Positions 1,715 through 30,280 of a DNA stretch of 30,597 nucleotides are shown in pieces; position 1 is the stretch's first letter, and every line of letters starts with the position of its first letter. The DNA lies in the IMG/VR virus record IMGVR_UViG_3300025687_004710, positions 1 to 30,597 of that record, one strand, 5' to 3'. The notes under the pieces are model-generated. The model did not search any database and was not told where the DNA came from. It worked only from the letters and a program-made list of their open reading frames with translations. Source of the stretch: a virus. The position numbers and the translations under genes were made by a program.

Positions 1715-2251
1715 TTAAAACTTAAACCGTAAACCAGCAGTAATAGCCTGGGTATCCCAATTATCAGTTCCTGATAAATTAGTTACAGTAATATCATCAC
1801 TGGTTAGATACTGATAACGAGCAACCAAATCAATGTTGTCTGCTACTGCATATCCAACGCCAGCCGAGGCACCGTAAACAAATCCTGCGTCATCTACTGT
1901 GCTAACCCCTGTGCCGTCTGCCCAGCCATACCCAAGGTTAATACCAACGAATGGAGTAAACTTGCTGTTGGTATTGATGTCATAGTATACACCAGTTAAT
2001 AGTGAGTCTACTTCAACTTCACCAAGTGAAGTATTATCTCCACTGGAGTTCCGGACACCAGCAAGATCAACACGAACTTTACCAAAGTCTTTTCCCAAGG
2101 CAAGGCCCATTACACTGGAGTTATCACGCCCGTCGTCGGCATTGATAGTTGATCCAAATTGACCTTCAATGTAGTAATTTTTTGCATCTTCTGCATGGGC
2201 AGTTGAAGCAATAAAGAGTACAGCAATAGCTGCGATAGTTGTACGAAACAT
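1715..2251 (-). CDS. small outer-membrane beta-barrel protein (Ail/Lom/OmpW-like)
   Basis: A 178-residue protein with a Sec signal peptide: MFRTT, a hydrophobic stretch AAIAVLFIAS, and an AHA site cut near residue 20 before EDAKNYY. The mature part alternates Gly/aromatic/polar residues in about eight amphipathic strands (VGINLGYGWADG, YGASAGVGYAV, IDLVARYQYL) and ends in GLRFKF, with the terminal Phe that the BAM machinery reads. Phage lambda Lom is a known phage relative of this type; such proteins alter host surface properties. The gene is terminated at 1667-1693. A possible -10 TACAAT lies at 2287-2282 without a convincing -35. Function is inferred from fold only. Confidence 0.8.
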   Translation of the reverse strand: MFRTTIAAIAVLFIASTAHAEDAKNYYIEGQFGSTINADDGRDNSSVMGLALGKDFGKVRVDLAGVRNSSGDNTSLGEVEVDSLLTGVYYDINTNSKFTPFVGINLGYGWADGTGVSTVDDAGFVYGASAGVGYAVADNIDLVARYQYLTSDDITVTNLSGTDNWDTQAITAGLRFKF

Positions 2252-5128: not shown

Positions 5129-5640
5129 TCTAATATTTCTCCTGTCTGTGCTCTAAAATTATTTATTTCTGTTGGATCTAGTTTGCCCACGACCACCGCC
5201 GCCGCCGTTAATGTGTCACTGTGAGCAATAATAACATGTGGTAACTCGTTTTCAGTATCCTGTATTTCTTTTAAGAAACTGTATACTCTGGAAGCCACAT
5301 CCTTTAAACTTTCGCCATTCTCAGGAGCATCTTGCCAGTTTAATTGAGTATCCAGCCGCTTGCCAGTTAGGTTACCATAGTCACGATCTCTAATAAACGG
5401 GCTTACTTGTTGTGTTTTATTCCAACTAGTATTATCACATATAATTTTTGCTGTATTAAAACTACGTCTTAGGTCACTGCAATATACATTGGCTACCACT
5501 GAGTACTTATCAGACAATTCTTTTGCTACATCGGTAGCCTCAATTACGCCCTGTTCTGTTAACTCAGGGTCCAGCCAGCCAGTGCATAGATTTTGTGCAT
5601 CATACTCATTTTGAGCAGTTTTAATCCAAACTGTTTTCAC
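5116..5640 (-). CDS. histidine-phosphatase-fold protein lacking the catalytic RHG
   Basis: A 174-residue protein of the phosphoglycerate-mutase/histidine-phosphatase superfamily. Family landmarks are clear: CTGWLDPELTEQGVIEA (residues 19-35), VYCSDLRRSFNTAKII (52-67), PENGESLKD (E110) and VIIAHSDT (H140). The signature N-terminal Arg-His-Gly, whose His is the phospho-acceptor, is Lys-Thr-Ala here (K7-T8-A9). The protein is therefore probably not a normal phosphatase and may bind a ligand or partner instead. The start is GTG at 5640, overlapping the stop of the small upstream frame. Its 3' end overlaps the next gene by 13 bases and carries a late-type promoter box. Confidence 0.75.
   Translation of the reverse strand: MKTVWIKTAQNEYDAQNLCTGWLDPELTEQGVIEATDVAKELSDKYSVVANVYCSDLRRSFNTAKIICDNTSWNKTQQVSPFIRDRDYGNLTGKRLDTQLNWQDAPENGESLKDVASRVYSFLKEIQDTENELPHVIIAHSDTLTAAAVVVGKLDPTEINNFRAQTGEILEWDF
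5160..5167 (-). promoter_or_regulatory. T4-late-type promoter box inside the phosphatase-like gene
   Basis: Minus-strand AATAAATA, one mismatch to the T4 late consensus, about 32 bases upstream of the start codon at 5128. The spacing closely matches that of the box at 1645-1652 to its gene (31 bases). Confidence 0.45.
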
Positions 5641-5774
5641 ATTCCGGTCTTTCTTAATCGGTCTGCTAAATCTTCGTCAATATTATCTGAGTGCTCAGTC
5701 ACTACAGCTGGCTCAACTCGCGGCATACCAGTTTCAGGATTATGTTCCCCAGGCGTTACCGAAAACGTCGACAT
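5637..5774 (-). CDS. small acidic hypothetical protein
   Basis: A 45-residue frame: [16 protein letters not shown], then MPRVEPAVVTEHSDN, then IDEDLADRLRKTGM. It begins inside the last 35 bases of queE and ends so that its TGA overlaps the GTG start of the next gene. The longer frame back to 6158 is only a shadow of queE. The sequence is Pro/Glu-rich with a short C-terminal helix and looks protein-like, but no ribosome site is visible, so it would depend on coupling with queE. No family recognised with certainty. Confidence 0.5.
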   Translation of the reverse strand: MSTFSVTPGEHNPETGMPRVEPAVVTEHSDNIDEDLADRLRKTGM

Positions 5775-6606
5775 GAAGCCGGGGGGAGTAACGATAACCT
5801 TTTTCAAGCGCAAGTTCTGCGACAGCTTTTCCGTTTTTAAAGTAACTGTCTGTTGTGCCTCCGACAGCCATGAGGTATACCGGCGCATGGACTCCCTGGG
5901 ATCCATATACTGACACAGCTCTGTCCACTTCTGCCACATCATTAAGATCACAAACCACAAACTTGAAATACAATTGACTGCCAGGAACATCACTGTAAGC
6001 CCTAGCAATATCAGGCTTAATAGCATCATCCCAACCATGTCCGCTAACTGATAGTTTTGGGGAGCATGACCATGTAACATGTAGTCTTGGTGTATCTTCG
6101 AGGTAAGATTTGAAATCATCGTGCAAACTCTGTGTGGTATTTGTTTCAAAGGTAACATTTTTTAAATCCTTCATTCGGGGATGGTCAAATAATTCTGTAT
6201 ACATACGCTGCCATCCTAGCAGTGGCTCTCCGCCAGTAATTACTAAATGTACATCTTGTCCATTTTCTTGTGTCCAACGGCCATTGGGTACCAACGTCAG
6301 TAGATAATCAACTAACCCATCAACGTCTGTTGTAGTTTGGAATCGCTTAAACGCTGGGTGCCAGGCTGCATAACTATCACAGCCTGTTGTTGCTAGTGGG
6401 AGATCATCCAATTTCTTATAACGATCTGGATTTTCTAAAACTTGTGCTGCAATGTCATCTGGCTCAGTAGTTTCTTGGCCATGTGGTAACCCAAATCCTG
6501 GGCATGTGAAATTACAGCCATACATACGAAGAAAAACACTGGGAACACCAGTAAATCTACCTTCGCCCTGAACACTATAAAATGCTTCTGTATATCTTAG
6601 TTTCAT
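5740..6606 (-). CDS. queE: 7-carboxy-7-deazaguanine synthase (QueE), phage type
   Basis: A 288-residue radical SAM enzyme that turns 6-carboxytetrahydropterin into 7-carboxy-7-deazaguanine, the ring-contraction step on the way to preQ0. Evidence: [20 protein letters not shown] (residues 8-27, the QueE substrate region), [11 protein letters not shown] with C31 and C35, [12 protein letters not shown] (SAM-binding GGE) and TFETNTTQ. The third cluster Cys expected at residue 38 is Gly; C76 in [11 protein letters not shown] is the best substitute. I remember the same arrangement in cyanophage QueE. The start overlaps the clpP stop (ATGA), and queD lies one gene further upstream. Confidence 0.88.
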
Positions 6607-9298: not shown

Positions 9299-12200
9299 TT
9301 AAAAATTCCAGTTTAACTTAATGCCTGCGTTAAGCTGGTCGTTGCCTTTAGTTCCAGCAACATTTAGTCGTTTCTCACCAAATGCCGCTATTGTAAAGTT
9401 ATCTTGTACCTTGTATTTTACAAACAAACCAAAGTCATGTTCAATAACTTTTGTGCTTGCGTCAGCACTTCCTTCATTAAACTGCACTTGGCCATCTACT
9501 GTTCGACCTGTTGGTACTCGATAGTTCATGCTACCACTCATTACGTGTAGTGGCTGACTGTAAGTACCACCCAAGGTCCAACCTTCAGCTGGCTTGAACC
9601 CTAGTCCAGTATTAAAGCTCTGACTAACCAAGTCACTGTAACCAGTAACTAGGCTGAACTCTTCGCTGGCTTGTACATCAGTAGTACCAATTTGGTAGTT
9701 ACCAAAACCAAACACAGTGTCATTAAAGTTGTGTTTGATCTTAAAGCTCGCATACTGTGTTGTATGATGCTCACCAACACCCATGAAGCCCTGCTGCACG
9801 TTATTAAGAAACTTGCCAGTTTCTTTTACAAAACCTAGACCAAAGTCAATACGTGTGTTTTCATCTTCGTAGGCTTTGTAGTTGGCGTTAATAGCATAAT
9901 CACCAGAGGCGTCACTGTTCATCTTCATTCCTGCGGAGAAGCCCATAAACTCTGGAGTGACAATATTCTGGTTGCTTGCTGCAAGGTTACTATAAGCGTC
10001 ATAGTTTCCTGCACCAAATGCCAGTGTTTCAACATAACCACCTGGACGAGTATCAACTGCCTGTGTTTGGCTGAGATCGACCTTAAAGTCTCGTTCGAAC
10101 TCATCCAACACGATAGCATTACTTAGTGCGGCAAATGCATCACTGCTAATATTTCCGATAGCAGCACCACCACTAAGGCTTGAAATACCACCGCTGGTAC
10201 GACCACTCGTTGGGATACCAGTTGCACCAACAGGCTGTGTTGCTGCATTAAGGTCCAACAATCCTTGCCCGTGTGTGTTAACATTATACCCAGCAATGGT
10301 CTTGTCAGCAGTTTTGGTAACCAACTTTACAAGGTTCTCACCTTTCATGTGTGGCCACATCTGGTTTAGGATAGCAAGTGCACCAGCAACCTGCGGCGCT
10401 GCCATACTAGTACCAGACATTAATTTGTTGCCACCGTCGTTGCTGGCACTTTCAACTGCCATGCCTGGTGCAAGAATGTAGAAGTCCGAAGTACTTGCGG
10501 CATCGGTGCAAGCACCGCTTACATAACTAGCACACATATGACCAGCTTTGTTACCAGAAATACTGTTGCTATCTACACTCCAGTTACCAACAATAAGCAT
10601 ACGGCCACCAAGAATAAGGTTGCCGTTTGCATCTGTTGCAGTTGCCATCTGACCACTGCCTACCACATAGTCGTAACCGTTGTTGCCAGCACTGTTGACA
10701 TACACCTGTTCATTACCAAGTGCCTCTGCCCAGCTTGGCGCATCCAAGGTGACCCCATTGTAGCCGTTAGGGCCGTAGTAATAGTGGTTACTGTGGAACT
10801 TACCGTCGCCATCATTTACAACACTAGAACGGAACGCTGAGTCTGGATTGTAGTTTGCACTAACACTGAACGCTACAGCACCAAGGTCACGAGACCAAGC
10901 CGCAGCATTCTTTGCACGTTGGAAACTAAATGCAGTACTGTCACTGATTTTAGCAACTGCAACATCAGCGTCAAATGCGACACCGTGTGTTCCTGTGCCA
11001 TTCTTGCGACCAGCAGCAACACCCAACACATGACTACCGTGCCCATGATTATCTTGCATGGTAACGTCAGTATTGCCAGTTGTTTTAACTTCAGTAAGTG
11101 TGTTGTAAGTGTGCTTAACGGCACCTGACAAATCACTGTGATCTACGTCGTAGCCAGTGTCAGCAATGGTAATCAAACTACCTTTACCAGTCCAACCGCG
11201 GCTATATGCGTAGTCTGCTTTAATAACTGACTTGTAGTTGGTACCACCACTGCCATTAAACTCTGAAGTACGATAGCTCAGTGGATCTGAATTGTATCCA
11301 GGAGTACGTGTACCCATGTCAGCATGATCGCCAACAGGTGCTTCAGCTTCTGGATTTTCAGCTTCACCAACAACCACATCTTCCACTGTCTCGCTCATAA
11401 CCTTGTTCCAGTTATCAGTAACAACAGTGTTTTCTGTGTTTACAGCGGTTACTGTTTCACCACGGATTAGCTCTTCACGACCATCAGTCCAAACCTTCTT
11501 GGTAACTGGGGTTGTTTTTGTGGTAGTAGTGGTAACAATAGTAGCTGTTGTTGTGTAGTAACGTGTTACTGTGGTGTACTTTTTGCCATCAGATTCTGTT
11601 ATGGTGGTGCGATCCTCTTGTTCAGTAACAAACACTGGGTCTGCTTCTGTAACTTCAGTAATCACCTCGTTTGTGATGGTCTCATTAGCAACAACATGTT
11701 CAGTGGTTGTTTCAACGAGTTCTTCGTTTTCTGTAACTACAACATCATCCACAGTTTCAGCAACAACTTCGTCAGTGGCATCATGTGTAAATGAGTGGCC
11801 ATCTTCGTAAGTGTAAACTGTTACTTTGGGATAGGTAGTTGTAGTAGTAACAGGTGTCGTTGATGTAGTCGTTGTCTTACGAAACGTCTTGTGCAAGATG
11901 CTGCCATCAGCCTGCGTTTCTTGAACAACACGATCTTCATAAACATTTTCTACAGCCGTAGTACCACGAGTAACAACCACTGTAGGAGTATTCTGCTCGT
12001 CTGAAGTATAACCAATAACCCTACTGAGTTCTTCAGTAGTCACACGCGGTGCAGCATCGTAAGTCTGCTGATATGGAATCTTACGAACAGCACCACGTTC
12101 TTCGCTGGTAGTACCATCACTGAACACAGTAGTCGTAACGTTCTGTGTTTCAACAGTCCAGGTACGGTCATATTCCATGTTTTGTGTAGTAGTACGTGTC

Positions 12201-12862
12201 CATGTTGCAGTACGTGTCAGGTTACCAACACTGTCACCACCAGTAACAGTTTGTTCACCATTGGTAACTTCTGTGTTCTTAACACGCTCTGCGCTGCTAA
12301 TGGTTTCTGACGTATTGACGGTTACTGCGCTGGTTGATGCGCTGATGACTGTTGGAGTGGCGCCTTCAAAAATGGCTGCCTTCTTATCAGAAATTTTCTG
12401 ATCCAACGTTTCCTTCTTTGCGAGGAATTCAAAATCTTTTGTATCATAGCTGCCACCGTTGACAACTTTAGTAACTATAGGCCGTAGATCTTCTTTGAGA
12501 ATCTTTACAACAGCCTCAGCTTCTCTCCACTCTTCGGTGGATAGTTTGACTGCAAGTAGATGTGGATCCATGCTGGCTTTATAATCGTTCCAGCCATTAA
12601 TAACGTTATCGATCTGACTGACAACATCACCTGCCAGCTTCACATCGTTATCGTTGGGGTTAACTAGTGCACTGATACTAGTGTTACTTTGTGCTACAGC
12701 AACCACAGCTTCAAGAGCTGAGATTTGACCGCTAATAGCAGCAAAGGCACTATTTGATGTCAGTCCACTAGTTACGCTTTTAACAGCATTACTCACACCG
12801 CCTGCTTGGCAGGCAGTTAGAGCAGTAGTTGCCATTAAAATTCCTAGTGTTTTTAACTTCAT
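9299..12862 (-). CDS. lipidated subtilisin-like (S8) autotransporter protease
   Basis: An 1187-residue exported protein. A lipoprotein signal ends at ALTAC (C18) with Gln at +2, predicting the outer membrane. Residues 40-170 are helical; residues 180-510 are Thr/Val/Glu-rich and repetitive (VTTTTTYPKVTVY, EVITEVTEAD), probably a beta stalk. The S8 domain spans about 540-875: D568 in IADTGYDVDH, H608 in HGHGSHVLG, oxyanion N727 in NSAGNN and S819 in MSGTSMAAP. The last 220 residues alternate as beta strands (FGLGFVKE, YASFKIKHNF, FGLFVKY) and end in NWNF, typical of an outer-membrane barrel. The plan resembles the lipidated S8 autotransporter NalP of Neisseria. It has its own promoter of the phage family (12922-12949). 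Very unusual cargo for a phage. Confidence 0.9.
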   Translation of the reverse strand: MKLKTLGILMATTALTACQAGGVSNAVKSVTSGLTSNSAFAAISGQISALEAVVAVAQSNTSISALVNPNDNDVKLAGDVVSQIDNVINGWNDYKASMDPHLLAVKLSTEEWREAEAVVKILKEDLRPIVTKVVNGGSYDTKDFEFLAKKETLDQKISDKKAAIFEGATPTVISASTSAVTVNTSETISSAERVKNTEVTNGEQTVTGGDSVGNLTRTATWTRTTTQNMEYDRTWTVETQNVTTTVFSDGTTSEERGAVRKIPYQQTYDAAPRVTTEELSRVIGYTSDEQNTPTVVVTRGTTAVENVYEDRVVQETQADGSILHKTFRKTTTTSTTPVTTTTTYPKVTVYTYEDGHSFTHDATDEVVAETVDDVVVTENEELVETTTEHVVANETITNEVITEVTEADPVFVTEQEDRTTITESDGKKYTTVTRYYTTTATIVTTTTTKTTPVTKKVWTDGREELIRGETVTAVNTENTVVTDNWNKVMSETVEDVVVGEAENPEAEAPVGDHADMGTRTPGYNSDPLSYRTSEFNGSGGTNYKSVIKADYAYSRGWTGKGSLITIADTGYDVDHSDLSGAVKHTYNTLTEVKTTGNTDVTMQDNHGHGSHVLGVAAGRKNGTGTHGVAFDADVAVAKISDSTAFSFQRAKNAAAWSRDLGAVAFSVSANYNPDSAFRSSVVNDGDGKFHSNHYYYGPNGYNGVTLDAPSWAEALGNEQVYVNSAGNNGYDYVVGSGQMATATDANGNLILGGRMLIVGNWSVDSNSISGNKAGHMCASYVSGACTDAASTSDFYILAPGMAVESASNDGGNKLMSGTSMAAPQVAGALAILNQMWPHMKGENLVKLVTKTADKTIAGYNVNTHGQGLLDLNAATQPVGATGIPTSGRTSGGISSLSGGAAIGNISSDAFAALSNAIVLDEFERDFKVDLSQTQAVDTRPGGYVETLAFGAGNYDAYSNLAASNQNIVTPEFMGFSAGMKMNSDASGDYAINANYKAYEDENTRIDFGLGFVKETGKFLNNVQQGFMGVGEHHTTQYASFKIKHNFNDTVFGFGNYQIGTTDVQASEEFSLVTGYSDLVSQSFNTGLGFKPAEGWTLGGTYSQPLHVMSGSMNYRVPTGRTVDGQVQFNEGSADASTKVIEHDFGLFVKYKVQDNFTIAAFGEKRLNVAGTKGNDQLNAGIKLNWNF

Positions 12863-12921
12863 TGTTGACCTCTGTGTCTAAGTTAATGTTTGCAACAGCT
12901 CATCTGTGCAAACTATAACTT

Positions 12922-12949
12922 ATAATAACACGGTCCTGTGTAAGGTCAA
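12922..12949 (-). promoter_or_regulatory. sigma70-like phage promoter for the S8 autotransporter gene
   Basis: On the minus strand: -35 TTGACC (12949-12944), 16-base spacer, extended -10 TGTTATTAT (-10 hexamer 12927-12922). Same form as the sites at 95-122 and 543-570. The leader to the ATG at 12862 is about 50 bases and carries AGAGGTCAAC just before the start. Confidence 0.7.
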
Positions 12950-12962
12950 CCGTTTTTGAAGA

Positions 12963-29190: not shown

Positions 29191-29817
29191 TCAATTATTT
29201 TTTCTTGATATGTTATCAGCATCATTGACAATGAGTTTTTCAGTATCGTCTAATTCTAAATTGCCATCTGGCAATACCGTAAACGTAAATGCATGCTTTT
29301 CGTCACCAGGGCCTTGAAGAATTATTTGTTTAATAGATGCTTCTTTATAAGGATTAAGACGTATCAACTCAATGGTAACCTGTTCTGCACCAGTATTCGC
29401 GTCAATTATTTTTGAATACCAGTGTGTAGTTACAGTATATGTTCTTGGATCTCTGCTTCTGATAGTTAATACTTCACGGTTAATTTCATGTTTCACTGTT
29501 GCGCCCGTTTCACTAATAAACGTGTCATTTCTATAACCAAGGTCGTCTCTGTCTAAATGCATTAGTGCAATATTCTTTGTTCTAAAACTAACAATATTGT
29601 TTAAATTATCCTGCACCCACATGTCAATGTCAGTTGTACTTTGTGGATCCCAGCTCATAACTACCATGTATTCTGCTTTGGGATCAAAGTTGTGTTTCTT
29701 AGCTATGGGATTAATCAGCATAAAAGCCAGGATGAACATAAATGTAAATCCTACTAGAAGATTGAATAGTAAATCTATAAATCCAAAACTGCTTTTGTAA
29801 CGTTGTTTAGTCGCCAT
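29191..29817 (-). CDS. ExbD/TolR/MotB-like membrane protein with large periplasmic domain
   Basis: A 208-residue protein with one N-terminal membrane helix, FGFIDLLFNLLVGFTFMFIL (residues 11-30). F-I-D (D15) matches the FID-V-M/L start of ExbD/TolR helices, where the Asp carries protons. The rest is periplasmic: WDPQSTTDIDMWVQDNLNNI resembles the T-D-I-D-L-x-V beta-sandwich domains of the DUF2135 type, followed by EVLTIRSRDPRTYTVTTHWY. No peptidoglycan-binding OmpA motif is visible, unlike MotB or ZorB. The ATG lies within the end of the channel gene (11-base overlap), so the two are made together and probably form one proton-driven complex. Confidence 0.75.
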   Translation of the reverse strand: MATKQRYKSSFGFIDLLFNLLVGFTFMFILAFMLINPIAKKHNFDPKAEYMVVMSWDPQSTTDIDMWVQDNLNNIVSFRTKNIALMHLDRDDLGYRNDTFISETGATVKHEINREVLTIRSRDPRTYTVTTHWYSKIIDANTGAEQVTIELIRLNPYKEASIKQIILQGPGDEKHAFTFTVLPDGNLELDDTEKLIVNDADNISRKNN

Positions 29818-30280
29818 TTTCCCAGCTATTCTCCAAAATAACCATTTGTGCTTTTGTTAAGATTGAGCAAATTAGTCCAACTAATGTAGTGCTCAATGCT
29901 GTACTCATTCCAATGGCCATGTCTGCAATAGCTGCTTGTATATTGGCAATGTTGGTAACATCAAGGTTACTAAAGGCAGTTCCAAGCATAAGCAAGAACC
30001 CAGCAACTGTGCCAATCATGCCCAGTGTGATCATTGCTTCACTGGCAAACCATACATAATTTCCAAGTGCTTGTGATTTTTTGTCCTGGTAGTTCTTGCT
30101 GATGTAACCGGTGAGTAACATAGTTACAGCAAATACACCTAGGATTCCAATACTAATTTTGGTGATGTCTGCATCCCAGAGCGCATGCCACCAACTTAGT
30201 TGATACGCAACAACACTGCCGAATACAATACATGAAACCTGAATCCACCATTTTAACAGGGTAACATTTAAAGATGCCAT
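29807..30280 (-). CDS. MotA/TolQ/ExbB-family proton channel subunit
   Basis: A 157-residue integral membrane protein with four hydrophobic segments at about 12-30, 41-60, 80-102 and 124-145. The last two carry the TolQ/ExbB signatures: ITLGMIGTVAGFLLMLGTAF (residues 84-103) and MAIGMSTALSTTLVGLICSI (121-140), with conserved Thr and Gly at the pore. ExbB and TolQ are about 230-245 residues; this one lacks the long cytoplasmic loop between the second and third helices. With the ExbD-like product of the next gene it should form a pentamer-dimer type motor driven by proton flow. Its ATG overlaps the TAA of the upstream gene. Confidence 0.82.
   Translation of the reverse strand: MASLNVTLLKWWIQVSCIVFGSVVAYQLSWWHALWDADITKISIGILGVFAVTMLLTGYISKNYQDKKSQALGNYVWFASEAMITLGMIGTVAGFLLMLGTAFSNLDVTNIANIQAAIADMAIGMSTALSTTLVGLICSILTKAQMVILENSWENGD

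Follow-up and report, generated by a model that had tools for sequence, protein, structure and literature searches.

The analysed stretch of DNA, referred to here as the window, comprises 30,597 nucleotides of a viral record (IMG/VR virus record IMGVR_UViG_3300025687_004710, positions 1 to 30,597). An intact 1187-aa open reading frame occupies positions 9299–12862 of its minus strand, the opposite (plus) strand being riddled with stop codons; the coordinates of a preliminary description were correct, and the strand, which it did not give, is minus. The reading frame, a Pfam match and the presence of relatives in more than 100 viral contigs together identify a complete gene for a putatively lipidated S8 protease with a C-terminal outer-membrane barrel. 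On the same strand, a ribosome-binding site (AGAGG, 12869–12873) lies 6 nt before the ATG, and a near-consensus sigma-70-type promoter (GTTGACC-N16-TATTAT with an extended -10 TG, 12922–12950), recognised from its sequence and conservation, has a -10 element ending 59 bp before the start codon.

The protein, encoded throughout on the minus strand, begins with a lipoprotein signal peptide (residues 1–18, 12809–12862), predicted from its sequence and from conservation in relatives. Its lipobox reads MKLKTLGILMATTALTAC, with LTA directly before Cys18 (LTAC, residues 15–18, 12809–12820) and Gln as the +2 residue, and is kept in close relatives with a complete N-terminus. An N-terminal domain that looks helical from its sequence (residues 19–180, 12323–12808) is followed by a Thr/Val-rich stalk (residues about 181–510, 11333–12322), delimited by composition and by length variation within the family, and containing 25.5% Thr and 14.5% Val when computed over about residues 181–505. 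The S8 protease domain (residues 545–876, 10235–11230) was placed by Pfam, a structure match and alignment, with the catalytic codons located by alignment at 11159–11161 (D568), 11039–11041 (H608) and 10406–10408 (S819). A conserved linker (residues 877–965, 9968–10234), with short helices in the AlphaFold2 prediction and invariant R888, D920 and R924 in the alignment, leads into the predicted outer-membrane beta-barrel (residues 966–1187, 9302–9967), which was defined by AlphaFold2, Foldseek and the family alignment and ends in Phe. The lipobox (as ALTAC), the Thr/Val-rich stalk, the complete S8 triad and the barrel ending in Phe had all been proposed at the outset, and each is borne out by the closer analysis. 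A role as a virion structural protein was also considered and dropped, as the signal peptide, lipobox and barrel speak against it.

The protein is assigned to peptidase family S8 (PF00082) on the strength of a profile match (residues 559–865, E 2.4e-25) whose 89.9 bits exceed the curated cut-off of 21.8, and of a full catalytic triad, with D568, H608, S819 and the oxyanion Asn727 invariant in an alignment of ten diverged sequences. The closest solved structure is 8e7f, an extracellular serine protease passenger (E 1.4e-21); the EprS model NF051851 was matched weakly in an NCBIfam search (E 3.3e-21), and phrog_3677 (PHROG 3677, ‘protease’) also matches the domain (E 4.2e-25). A comparison of the protease with PADLOC returned no defence-system match. 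Estimates of dN/dS of about 0.04–0.17 for the protease and barrel in most unsaturated pairs of close relatives, with often higher values for the stalk, indicate that both of these domains are under purifying selection.

Evidence for the barrel is structural. An initial AlphaFold2 model of the protease and barrel built from 10 sequences was poor (pLDDT 48.6), and was superseded by a barrel-only model of the C-terminal 318 residues with 74 homologues (pLDDT 88.8, pTM 0.83), in which the strands resemble those of outer-membrane proteins. The preliminary description had proposed structure prediction as a check for a 12-strand barrel; a barrel is indeed predicted, but with 10 transmembrane strands, as counted from the DSSP string read without coordinates, and with turns that are short on the periplasmic side and loops that are long on the outer side. 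Only short helices precede it, with no long pore-spanning helix in the prediction. In a Foldseek search of the PDB the matches listed were essentially all outer-membrane barrels, among them OmpG, PorB, TodX, OpcA, the NalP translocator 1uyn (E 1.1e-3), EstA, Hbp and EspP, and TM-scores were low (0.28–0.43), so that, judged by the model, none of these barrels is a close copy (about 0.3–0.4 for the top matches). A profile of the barrel sequence found no match in the PDB. The autotransporter translocator family PF03797 was absent among the matches listed for 74 family barrels (25 of 38 Pfam families, E up to 10), and likewise from the Pfam matches of the full protein. An aromatic final residue is typical of the family: F, W or Y closes the sequence in 52 of 67 non-redundant relatives, and the exceptions are mostly from one clade with a C-terminal extension. 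This clade (L013, L016–L021 and related loci) carries about 55 extra residues past the barrel, with the conserved end HGLVYDLExDxFVPI. Among predicted viral structures in BFVD, the model A0A6J5TBB6 matches the barrel with a TMq of 0.79. The same barrel is also found, with a TMq of 0.70, in A0A6J5L9S5 from an uncultured Caudovirales member, annotated with a VCBS-type repeat, and the barrel may therefore bear passengers other than S8 proteases.

This organisation invites comparison with bacterial subtilases that combine a lipid and a barrel, namely NalP (PMC5472700) and SphB1 (PMC9977779), both of which cut surface proteins of their own cell. The phage protein shares with NalP of Neisseria meningitidis, a lipidated type Va autotransporter, a lipoprotein signal, an S8 domain and a C-terminal outer-membrane barrel. 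It differs in that its Thr-rich stalk precedes the protease, its barrel is predicted to have about 10 strands, not 12 (counted from DSSP), with no match to PF03797, and it is phage-encoded with its own sigma-70-type promoter. The subtilisin-like autotransporters SphB1, Ssp and EprS (Group 15) have an S8 domain related to that of the phage protein, as judged from the matches to 8e7f and to the EprS model NF051851, but place a PF03797 translocator and a beta-helix of about 200 aa after the protease (PMC9289746), where the phage protein has a linker of about 90 aa. Thus, while a lipidated-type signal motif, an S8 passenger triad and a predicted C-terminal outer-membrane barrel are all present, the protein is not classified among the type Va subtilisin-like autotransporters, because PF03797 is not among the listed matches and the protease is joined to the barrel by only about 90 residues instead of a beta-helical stalk. 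The original comparison with NalP therefore stands for the overall plan of lipid, S8 domain and barrel, but not for PF03797 or a stalk after the protease; the barrel looks 10- instead of 12-stranded, and by analogy the protein may function like NalP though it lies outside the PF03797 family. No report of phage autotransporters was found in the open-licence literature, which at that coverage is weak evidence, and open-licence papers on jumbo phages, marine ones included, made no mention of the family in the terms searched.

The family itself is already present in databases (PHROG 3677; UniProt A0A6J5TBB6, ‘Peptidase S8/S53 domain containing protein’, uncultured Caudovirales), where entries that match the protease or the barrel are named only for the protease domain; the barrel, lipid anchor and promoter are not described in them. 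A lipobox, found in most members, defines one group, in which it is mostly followed by a glycine run, while a second group has a Sec-type N-terminus and no lipobox. Ahead of the protease, members differ widely in length (about 60 to 950 aa), as expected for the spacer of a surface-displayed enzyme. In L036, L039 and L040 the linker and barrel are 98–100% identical, whereas two of the three pairs share 63–64% identity in the N-terminal part; such coupling of an almost unchanged barrel to a divergent N-terminus is taken as a sign of recombination, with modules exchanged within the gene.

Homologues had been sought in other phages and in bacteria, and they occur both in the viral contigs and on proteobacterial chromosomes, for example beside rml genes (L023) and adjoining branched-chain amino acid transporter genes (L025). 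Hits to the barrel profile occur in 15 of 321 genomes (5%) of the class containing the gammaproteobacterial MAG and 60 of 337 (18%) of the class of Henriciella; the matching bacterial proteins carry an S8 domain upstream of the barrel and, in some, a lipobox. These proteobacterial proteins (L187, L189, L193, L204 and others) thus share the S8 domain and the barrel family with the phage protein, mostly with a C-terminal aromatic residue, and two (L204 and L193) share its lipobox. They are, however, chromosomal, have a shorter region before the protease and lie for the most part on a separate branch of the tree. In a tree of 92 core sequences, whose long branches leave the deep branching order unsure, the 67 phage sequences group together, with six bacterial ones dispersed among them. 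At least five changes of label are forced, which argues for several transfers of the family between phages and bacteria.

Chromosomal homologues are also what could be expected if the contig fused phage and bacterial DNA through misassembly or contamination, a junction that the preliminary description had named as grounds for refutation. This explanation is vanishingly improbable: a second IMG/VR contig holds the gene at 100% identity with identical neighbours, and dozens of diverged contigs show the same arrangement of genes around the protease. The protease is present in 7 of 7 contexts of the close clade (reached through the neighbouring exonuclease gene), and together with the synteny this indicates that the phage clade to which it belongs has conserved it, and excludes a phage–bacterial joint. 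In the contexts of the next phage clade it is mostly missing from the corresponding interval; phages of this type can thus do without it, which counts against the surface-trimming role favoured below. The window’s PolB is closest to the DNA polymerases of the jumbo phages Phosso (469 kb) and Atu_ph07, and viral contigs bearing relatives reach 352 kb. T4-type gp23 was found in three, and a terminase in four, of 12 relative-bearing records tested, and three relatives’ contigs of 300–350 kb carry both gp23 and terminase (TerL) genes. Cultured phages yielded only weak S8 matches, in two records, and the window had no DNA-level match among them. This gene content and conserved synteny mark the source as a T4-type jumbo phage, in agreement with the phage origin first assumed. 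The accompanying view that such a protein is unexpected in a phage should be toned down, given the occurrence of the family in more than 100 viral contigs and in bacteria.

Several other features of the window were recorded. A candidate overlapping gene of 173 aa (5637–6158, minus strand) lies in the +1 frame of queE (5740–6606, minus strand), and extends past it; its product has a hydrophobic segment and ends in a conserved tail of LRxxGM/L type. Over the last 140 queE codons the overlap frame has zero stops in 20 of 20 relatives, where synonymous resampling predicts 6–14. Most pairs also show reduced synonymous change within the overlap, and in queE copies further removed the frame contains 7–15 stops. 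A second phage outer-membrane protein is encoded at 1715–2251 (minus strand), with a signal peptide and an OMP_b-brl/Opacity barrel (E 9.2e-16), and was seen in just two loci, both the same contig. At 29191–30280 (minus strand) lies a gene for a MotA/TolQ/ExbB-like protein (Pfam E 2.5e-7), with weak ZorA matches in PADLOC, adjoining a gene for a one-helix protein that is ExbD-like by eye; the pair is possibly a phage-encoded envelope motor.

The promoter bears on when the protease would be made. Among close relatives its hexamers are conserved while the spacers have diverged, and the exact GTTGACC-N16-TATTAT-type pattern is present at three places in the window, always on the minus strand. A promoter score of at least 10 was reached by 37 of 58 family members (64%). 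The corresponding share was 9.6% among 1325 other genes on the same strand and 13% among the 568 whose gap is at least 60 bp; the ratio is approximate, since scoring covered 15–75 bp upstream of automatically chosen start codons and the control genes are non-independent. Roughly one member in three, with most of the C-terminal-extension clade among them, is without the signal, which counts against the reading favoured below. Sigma-70-like sites are rare in the clusters of head and structural genes in these phages, where the T4 late-promoter motif TATAAATA was seen once; in the window there is none. A conserved sigma-70 promoter points to transcription by host polymerase, probably early, and away from a lysis gene. 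This timing is relevant to a proposed late role, in which the protease would liberate progeny from debris, or cleave receptors and thereby keep new virions from sticking. The anatomy would be the same, and an early surface protease would persist to lysis, yet the sigma-70-type promoter, present in most of the family and rare in structural clusters, makes release as the main function quite improbable; superinfection exclusion or surface remodelling fits it better than progeny release at lysis.

Taken together, these features point to an early-made serine protease fixed in the outer membrane, facing the surface and cutting surface proteins, most plausibly to exclude rival phages, a reading to which we give about an even chance. 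Host sigma-70 polymerase would transcribe the gene early from its own promoter. The lipoprotein signal would direct the product to Sec and signal peptidase II, with lipidation of Cys18 predicted from the motif, and the predicted C-terminal barrel would be inserted into the outer membrane by BAM. By analogy with NalP, the stalk and S8 domain would then extend outwards, tethered by barrel and lipid. There the protease would cut proteins of the infected cell’s surface, most plausibly phage receptors or appendages, such that rival phages would be excluded and released progeny would not readsorb.

Features of the predicted barrel weigh against this arrangement: it is narrow, with 10 strands as opposed to the 12 of known translocators, has no long pore helix and gives low TM-scores. 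The main rival to surface trimming is accordingly a protease that faces the periplasm, with the barrel as an outer-membrane anchor only, where it would cut host periplasmic or outer-membrane proteins or weaken the envelope. Export of the protease through its own barrel is less obvious with 10 strands and no long pore helix, and by the parity of the strand count the first strand begins on the periplasmic side. Moreover, unless the +2 residue is Asp, the default destination of a lipoprotein in the Lol system is the outer membrane's inner leaflet. The narrow periplasm would, however, hardly accommodate the family's spacers, which reach about 950 aa ahead of the protease, and the lipid-and-barrel subtilases NalP and SphB1 act at the surface; on balance we consider a periplasmic location unlikely. 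A nutritional role, as an auxiliary gene digesting nearby proteins to feed a long jumbo-phage infection, would suit the broad substrate range often seen in S8 proteases, the metabolic genes carried by large phages and the several neighbours in the window that resemble nucleotide- or sugar-metabolism genes. Among the window's genes, though, none was recognised as encoding a peptide transporter, and anchoring by lipid and barrel suits the cutting of adjacent surface proteins better than secretion, so this role appears very improbable.

A protease built for anchoring in the outer membrane, with a strong bacterial-type promoter of its own, suggests that very large phages remodel the host surface early in infection. 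Known superinfection-exclusion lipoproteins block receptors through binding, as Llp does with FhuA, and the Llp–FhuA structure 8a60 was among the Foldseek matches listed for the barrel. If the surface reading is true, a membrane-anchored phage protease would represent catalytic receptor blocking, and could hit several receptors. More tentatively, a large clade of T4-type jumbo phages may shave receptors or appendages with a self-anchoring early protease as a proteolytic form of superinfection exclusion. The anchor would then belong to a secretion-type barrel family of about 10 strands, separate from PF03797, that phages and proteobacteria have exchanged. As a barrel family with no Pfam model, it may represent an unannotated class of outer-membrane anchor or translocator, widespread in uncultured viral contigs and likely to have crossed between phages and bacteria several times.
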